A stretch of DNA of 61,023 nt, from positions 1-61,023 of the forward strand of contig CAMCAZ010000016.1 of assembly GCA_945872795.1 (NCBI GenBank), given 5' to 3'. The DNA is from Chryseobacterium gleum. Lineage in GTDB: Bacteria > Bacteroidota > Bacteroidia > Flavobacteriales_F > PHOS-HE28. This document shows positions 45,599 to 61,023 of the stretch, piece by piece. The translations under genes and the position numbers were made by a program. The notes under the pieces are model-generated. The model made no database searches and was not told the origin of the DNA. It saw only the letters and a program-made list of their open reading frames with translations. Each line of letters begins with the position of its first letter. Position 1 is the stretch's first letter.

Positions 45599-45871
45599 TT
45601 ACTTCTTCTTGGCAGCAGCTTTCTTCGGAGCGGCCTTCTTTGCAGCGGCCTTCTTCGGAGCAGCAGCCTTCTTCGGAGCAGCAGCCTTCTTCGGAGCAGC
45701 CTTCTTAGCTGCAGCCTTTTTGGGAGCAGCCTTCTTGGCAGCAGCCTTCTTAGGCGCAGCTTTTTTGGCGGTCGCCTTCTTGGCAGCGGCTACGCGCTTT
45801 GCCGGACGGGCTTTACCAGTGCTACCTGCGGTACGCTTTCCTTTCTTCGTCTTCATATCACCTTTTCCCAT
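45599..45871 (-). CDS. Histone H1-like Lys/Ala-rich protein
   Basis: About 90 residues. After MGKGDMKTKKGKRTAGSTGK the protein is an almost pure repeat of KKAAPKKAAAKK-type units to the last residue, resembling chlamydial Hc2 and other bacterial H1-like proteins. Such tails neutralise and compact DNA without folding. Start at 45871 or at Met 45856 (MKTKKGKRT); the longer frame from 45943 would begin upstream of the promoter box at 45896-45903. Likely an abundant nucleoid protein. The number of repeat units may vary between strains. Confidence 0.82.
   Translation of the reverse strand: MGKGDMKTKKGKRTAGSTGKARPAKRVAAAKKATAKKAAPKKAAAKKAAPKKAAAKKAAPKKAAAPKKAAAPKKAAAKKAAPKKAAAKKK
45609..45800 (-). 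repeat. Short in-frame DNA repeats coding KKAAP/KKAAA units
   Basis: Tandem, imperfect 12-15 base repeats (GCAGCCTTCTT and GGAGCAGCCTTCTT on the plus strand) encode the Lys/Ala tail. They are a slippage-prone coding tract rather than a non-coding array. Confidence 0.8.
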
Positions 45872-60535: not shown

Positions 60536-60626
<91 letters not shown>

Positions 60627-60745: not shown

Positions 60746-60819
60746 CGGGGCGTAGCGTAGCCCGGTATCGCGCCTGCTTTGGGAGCAGGAGGTCGTCAGT
60801 TCGAATCTGGCCGCCCCGA
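60746..60819 (+). tRNA. tRNA-Pro (anticodon TGG)
   Basis: 74 bases. The acceptor stem is CGGGGCG/CGCCCCG, the anticodon stem CCTGC/GCAGG holds loop TTTGGGA, and the T-loop has TTCGAAT. The discriminator is A and no CCA is encoded. It is the source of the tandem repeat that follows. Confidence 0.95.
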
Positions 60820-60822
60820 CAA

Positions 60823-60855
60823 GTGAAAGGTCGACCACAGGGTCGGCCTTTTTCA
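60823..60855 (+). terminator. Terminator of tRNA-Pro (first of at least two copies)
   Basis: Eleven-base stem AAAGGTCGACC against GGGTCGGCCTTT, loop ACA, then TTTTT. A second identical copy begins 106 bases later as part of the tandem repeat. Confidence 0.8.
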
Positions 60856-60862
60856 TTCACCA

Positions 60863-60925
60863 CGTAGCCCGGTATCGCGTCCCGCCCAGGGGCGGGAAGG
60901 TCGTCAGTGGATCTGGCCGCCCCGA
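60863..60925 (+). pseudogene. tRNA-Pro pseudogene copy with palindromic anticodon-arm replacement
   Basis: It shares CGTAGCCCGGTATCGCG and the 3' half from AGGTCGTCAGT to CCGCCCCGA with the tRNA. The anticodon arm is replaced by TCCCGCCC-AG-GGGCGGGA (60880-60897) and the T-loop GTTCGAATC is shortened to GTGGATC. The second copy starts at 60969 and is cut by the window end. Confidence 0.85.
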
Positions 60926-61023
60926 CAAGTGAAAGGTCGACCACAGGGTCGGCCTTTTTCATTCACCACGTAGCCCGGTATCGCGTCCCGCCCAGGGGCG
61001 GGAAGGTCGTCAGTGGATCTGGC

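Follow-up and report, generated by a model that had tools for sequence, protein, structure and literature searches.

A tandem array of hairpin-bearing pseudo-tRNAs after tRNA-Pro(UGG) in Chryseobacterium gleum is probably the remnant of a homing-type GIY-YIG element associated with tRNA genes

The window analyzed here, that is, the whole stretch of 61,023 nucleotides from Chryseobacterium gleum, ends in a tandem array of altered tRNA-Pro pieces. With a probability of roughly 0.6, we interpret this array as the remnant of a homing-type GIY-YIG element associated with tRNA genes, a remnant without an open reading frame (ORF) that would have been amplified in tandem by recombination. The original prediction of an exact 106-bp repeat downstream of an intact tRNA-Pro(UGG) was borne out: positions 60805-60910 and 60911-61016 form a direct repeat with 100% identity in the repeat finder, and TRF scored the array at 453 over positions 60756-61023. 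Such an exact repeat far exceeds what chance would produce. The features, all on the forward strand, are as follows:

60536..60626 (+): tRNA-Ser(GCU), upstream neighbour in a conserved Ser-Pro-Arg tRNA locus (ARAGORN; relatives' loci)
60746..60820 (+): intact tRNA-Pro(UGG) (ARAGORN; Rfam)
60805..60910 (+): repeat unit 1, overlapping the intact tRNA by its 3'-terminal 16 nt (repeat finder)
60826..60853 (+): terminator-like hairpin 3' of tRNA-Pro, recurring in each unit (sequence; fold)
60863..60879 (+): pseudo-tRNA 1, D-arm copy CGTAGCCCGGTATCGCG (repeat search)
60880..60897 (+): pseudo-tRNA 1, hairpin TCCCGCCCAGGGGCGGGA replacing the anticodon arm (sequence; family covariation)
60898..60926 (+): pseudo-tRNA 1, remaining 3' part: variable region, T-arm damaged by the change of TTCGAAT into TGGAT, acceptor 3' strand (sequence)
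60911..61016 (+): repeat unit 2, identical to unit 1 (repeat finder)
60932..60959 (+): terminator 3' of pseudo-tRNA 1 (sequence; fold)
60969..60985 (+): pseudo-tRNA 2, D-arm copy (repeat search)
60986..61003 (+): pseudo-tRNA 2, hairpin (sequence)
61004..61023 (+): pseudo-tRNA 2, start of the 3' part only, ending with the contig (sequence; array resumes on contig C23)

The units are indeed built from the D-arm, the 3' half and the terminator of the tRNA gene, as had been proposed, and the D-arm 17-mer occurs three times in the array. The acceptor 5' strand is missing, the anticodon arm of the intact tRNA (CCTGCTTTGGGAGCAGG) is swapped in each pseudo-tRNA for a perfect TCCCG..CGGGA hairpin, and the T-loop TTCGAAT reads TGGAT. 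No tRNA was called in the units by ARAGORN, or by Rfam even at E ≤ 1. Judged by its sequence, each unit is a systematically disabled tRNA. The claim that every unit has its own terminator also held, since all complete units contain the hairpin AAAGGTCGACC-ACAG-GGTCGGCCTTT followed by TT, which folds as expected; a simple consensus scan missed it because the stem extends into the T tract. Neither an ORF nor an ORF remnant was visible in the units of the window. The intact tRNA-Pro(UGG) was the single full-tRNA match in its own genome, and its sequence is the same as that of an element-free relative (G004). Elsewhere in the window, TRF listed a tandem 15/30-bp repeat (CTTCTTCGGAGCAGC, positions 45605-45781), the minus strand of which would encode an Ala/Pro/Lys-rich tail like those of histone H1-type proteins.

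Position 61023 is the last base of contig C16 in this 102-contig assembly (G000:C16), and the assembly therefore cuts the second pseudo-tRNA short. The break itself was probably caused by the array. At the start of contig C23 (C23:69-223), we found at least two further units, 89-96% identical, followed by tRNA-Arg(TCT), i.e., tRNA-Arg(UCU). In relatives G029 and G016, the thiolase gene, tRNA-Ser, the tRNA-Pro region and the gene downstream on C23 all lie on one contig. Given this gene order, C16 and C23 are most likely neighbours across a gap that may hold further units.

Related genomes had been suggested as the place to look for the same array after tRNA-Pro. The tRNA-Pro(UGG) locus proved to be polymorphic among congeners, with and without the element at one site. 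G004, G016 and others have this tRNA without repeats, while fragment arrays or elements were found in four relatives: three longer ORF-less units in G003, fragments of about 80 bp upstream of the tRNA in G028, a GIY-YIG ORF with hairpin fragments in G029, and a single hairpin fragment accompanied by two such ORFs in G011. The hairpins at this locus vary in sequence across relatives and the stem is kept. Copy number and unit length vary as well, the units of one array match each other exactly, and such arrays are found repeatedly at the ends of contigs, in agreement with the earlier suggestion that the array expands by recombination. Of note, one hairpin-bearing pseudo-tRNA-Pro in G029 (L026 1800-1873) has a nearly complete acceptor stem and is called as tRNA-Leu(CAG) by ARAGORN, which makes it an annotation trap. 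Relatives also contain another repeat type (L031 about 2340-2730, L036 about 1-360, and L038 about 2000-2560 on the minus strand), located after tRNA-Ser(GCU) or near tRNA-Pro, with units containing GCGCGCCTCGCGCAATCCCCC or similar sequences and terminator-derived palindromes. Moreover, a stray copy of the tRNA-Arg 3' end (AATCCAACCGGGATCAC) was observed downstream of the intact tRNA-Arg in G011 (L029 about 885-905).

The same type of organization was found at other tRNA genes. In the genome of the window, two of the small GIY-YIG genes lie directly 3' of tRNA-Pro(GGG) and tRNA-fMet. After each gene come a 3' tRNA fragment with a hairpin, which contains the ORF stop codon, and a terminator. 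A 5' fragment with a hairpin precedes tRNA-Val. Across the genus, this architecture is stereotyped at seven tRNA types, namely Pro(GGG), Pro(UGG), fMet, Val, Ala(GGC), Leu(UAA), and Leu(CAA). Hairpin fragments and a small GIY-YIG gene flank intact tRNA-Pro(GGG), Met, Val, Ala, Leu, Asn, Arg, and Thr in relatives. The gene is on the strand of the tRNA, usually about 15-80 bp 3' of it, and its stop codon is often within the tRNA fragment in these relatives' loci. Gene-less arrays were present in the genus at Pro(GGG) (122-bp units × 4; about 133-bp units × 3), Ala, and Val, often in contig-terminal positions. Presence was very patchy between congeners, and some loci had ORFs decayed by stops or truncations. 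At two tRNA-Pro(GGG) loci (L191, L180), decayed GIY-YIG remnants lie beside hairpin fragments, the gene having been lost and the fragment kept. Destruction of the T-loop was rejected as a universal feature of the fragments; some have a normal T-loop and many Met fragments retain TTCGAG. In three loci (L028, L178, L251), the T-loop of the fragment contains a second hairpin (e.g., TTCGTCCCGCAGCATTGCGGGACTGG) in addition to that of the anticodon arm.

The 17 proteins taken from relatives' loci all matched PF01541 (the window itself having no visible ORF) and the GIY-YIG residues Y, YxG, R, and E were conserved (Y5, Y16, G18, R27, and E63 in A1). A profile of these proteins searched against 149 genomes of the class, with a cut-off of E ≤ 1e-8, matched 102 genomes and 71 of 99 genera. 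ARAGORN identified a tRNA in most of the top-match loci. In most of them, the intact tRNA adjoins the ORF on the same strand, and the opposite side has either a 3' copy, often matching at 26/26 nt, or a 5' copy, the 5' copies being at Leu and Arg loci. One genome contained a 457-bp unit (GIY-YIG gene and fragments) repeated 10.2 times in exact tandem after tRNA-fMet; at its tRNA-Asn, 127-bp 5'-fragment units (× 3.7) precede the intact tRNA, which is followed by 379-bp ORF units (× 4.6), likewise in exact tandem. A collection scan using the Met subfamily (A3), thus biased to Met by design, had matches that include Flavobacterium, Pedobacter, Mucilaginibacter, Cyclobacterium, and others. In 56 of 79 loci of this subfamily, an intact tRNA-Met preceded the ORF on its strand by no more than 250 bp, and a tRNA 3' copy followed the ORF in 37 of 79. 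Flavobacterium covae AL-02-36 (CP067379.1) has three tandem ORF units after tRNA-Met. When tRNA isotypes were mapped on the protein tree, 17 changes were counted vs 41.6 in shuffled data (0/200 shuffles); the clades rest on an 80-column alignment with many weak forks, and the isotype clustering is strong. On the evidence of this clustering, target specificity appears to be inherited with the nuclease. A phage origin was rejected, as the one protein searched had no match in phage records.

The hairpin is a conserved part of the fragments. In a search that did not require a stem, 95% of the Met loci and 61% of the all-isotype loci had one of at least 6 bp in the 40 nt preceding the 3' copy, compared with 4-5% of shuffles preserving single-base composition only. 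The same control in the genus set was weaker because genuine anticodon arms fold too. Positions 6 and 7 of the stem were left unconstrained by the search; in 50 distinct hairpins with TCCCG feet, they were Watson-Crick paired in 94%, as opposed to 70% and 45% with swapped arms, and four pair types occurred at position 7. The hairpin type tracked the protein clade and not the tRNA. The TCCCG type was found in 26 of 28 clade II loci, including a tRNA-Met locus (L238), the TCATA+TCCG type in 8 of 11 clade I-Met loci and in zero loci of other clades, and the CCTGCCT type in 10 of 16 clade I-Leu loci. The CCTGCCT pattern also matched two clade II loci through the genuine anticodon arm of tRNA-Val, and one I-Met match to the TCCCG pattern was a terminator. 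We rejected the hairpin as a dispersed REP-like repeat, the loose TCCCG..CGGGA pattern having 120 matches genome-wide vs 161 in the reversed control. Those matches followed by NGGTC were above the control in the genus. The TCCGCC and CCTGCC palindromes were modestly dispersed in this genome (9 vs 0) and absent from several element-bearing genomes. Two places with no tRNA nearby (L069, G000:C5:84728-84787; L070, G000:C13:1548-1835) contain short repeats, ATCCCGC..GCGGGACAGGTCGTG, with the foot of the pseudo-tRNA hairpin, and these are possibly dispersed hairpin copies.

The array was compared with known systems. In the tyrT locus of E. coli, the repeats linked to rtT RNA lie downstream of a tRNA gene and each carries tRNA-derived sequence. 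The parallel drawn in the original prediction stands to that extent, but it is superficial: both the unit and the part of the tRNA differ, since the window units carry the D-arm, hairpin, and 3' half instead of only the last tRNA bases, they are disabled, and their hairpin is common to GIY-YIG elements found class-wide. We know of neither a hairpin replacement nor a nuclease gene in the tyrT repeats. Group I introns in tRNA genes with GIY-YIG homing endonucleases share the target and the nuclease type; this candidate was rejected, as no intron core was found, Rfam matches were to tRNAs alone in nine such loci, and the intact tRNA is uninterrupted. A closer likeness is found with the mobile endonuclease ORFs (mORFs) of fungal mitochondria (atp6/atp9/cox2/nad3 hybrids in Allomyces and Glomus), in which a free-standing LAGLIDADG or GIY-YIG gene separates the functional target gene from a displaced copy of its native 3' end, and for which nuclease-driven invasion displacing the gene end was proposed (PMC3630166). 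Both have a working copy on one side of the ORF and a displaced partial copy on the other. Unlike mORFs, the elements described here have a bacterial tRNA target, a conserved hairpin on the displaced piece, pieces on either side, and tandem arrays in which the ORF may be present or absent. SegB, a GIY-YIG homing endonuclease of phages T6/T4, adjoins tRNA genes and cuts inside them, and in phage T6 the tRNA region depends on it for its tandem segmental amplification, recombination between direct repeats having been shown (PMC13096335). By our reading, its motif RAWTSGAAC would be the complement of the tRNA T-loop, the site altered in many fragments here. SegB differs in being phage-borne, and we know of no hairpin pseudo-tRNAs associated with it.

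The complete form of the element consists of a 5' tRNA fragment with hairpin, the intact tRNA, its terminator, a small GIY-YIG gene, a hairpin with 3' tRNA fragment, and a terminator; in a second form, the GIY-YIG gene lies between a 5' fragment and the intact tRNA. We infer that the nuclease cuts an element-free tRNA gene or its flank and that repair brings in the element with tRNA sequence restoring one working tRNA, while the displaced tRNA end would persist as a hairpin-bearing fragment. Distal and proximal terminators were near-identical at some loci, which fits a local duplication and the arrival of a foreign element equally, and different at others; the tRNA is too conserved to tell native from foreign. 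Recombination at the direct repeats formed by fragment and terminator, spontaneous or perhaps stimulated by nuclease breaks, would then lead to gain or loss of units with or without the gene. In the window, the gene would have been lost, or be hidden in the assembly gap, and the 106-bp fragment-terminator unit alone amplified. Classical self-immunity through site disruption does not account for the intact tRNA-Pro, which has the same sequence as in a relative lacking the element. Most likely, the hairpin labels the fragment as non-target and non-tRNA, or is a recognition structure of the element; it may protect the fragment from cutting or tRNA processing, or serve as a binding site. A broader reading, tentative and with the odds leaning against it, is that an undescribed Bacteroidota-wide GIY-YIG family targets tRNA genes, that the anticodon arm of displaced fragments is replaced or interrupted by a hairpin specific to the clade, which the cognate nuclease recognizes as a DNA cruciform or RNA, and that the unit able to move or be amplified is the fragment marked in this way, ORF-less arrays included.

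Four other explanations were weighed against an element remnant. A host system related to defence or toxin-antitoxin pairs, in which tRNA or phage DNA is the substrate of the GIY-YIG protein and the hairpin repeats are RNAs regulating, baiting, or neutralizing it, would account for the conserved catalytic residues and for a hairpin that covaries and follows the protein clade, as expected with protein-RNA binding. The repeats with terminators also resemble the RNA antitoxin repeats of type III systems. We nevertheless consider it unlikely, as patchy presence, decayed ORFs, fragments on either side of the tRNA, and isotype clustering favour a selfish element. A recent neutral tandem duplication unconnected to any element would suit two identical units without an ORF; it is likewise unlikely, given that the hairpin replacement recurs at several tRNA types in many genomes and that ORF-bearing units, looked for at tRNA-Pro(UGG) in relatives, were found in G029 and G011. 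The roles first imagined, a ladder of small tRNA-like RNAs or sponges for tRNA-processing enzymes, fit with a terminator-like hairpin in each unit and with an upstream tRNA gene that is presumably transcribed. They went unsupported and are improbable: units without acceptor 5' strand, anticodon arm and, here, T-loop gave no Rfam or ARAGORN match, and every terminator is expected to end transcription ahead of the next unit. An assembly artefact, suggested by the position at a contig end, is very improbable, because independent diverged units open C23 before tRNA-Arg in the relatives' gene order and analogous arrays (L028, L178, L222, L223) were assembled through within contigs.

We found no description of a tRNA-linked GIY-YIG/hairpin system in a full-text literature search of incomplete coverage, preprints lying outside it. 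To our knowledge, free-standing homing elements that colonize essential tRNA genes have not been known from bacterial chromosomes. The family looks undescribed, yet it is a variant of free-standing homing-type nuclease genes and not categorically new. Related nuclease genes are present in about two thirds of the sampled Bacteroidia genomes, including cultured genera such as Flavobacterium, Pedobacter, Mucilaginibacter, and Cyclobacterium, and are mostly linked to tRNA genes where checked. The tRNA-derived repeat arrays left behind break assemblies and can mislead tRNA annotation. Finally, protein clade and hairpin type are inherited together, which suggests that a recognition code exists.
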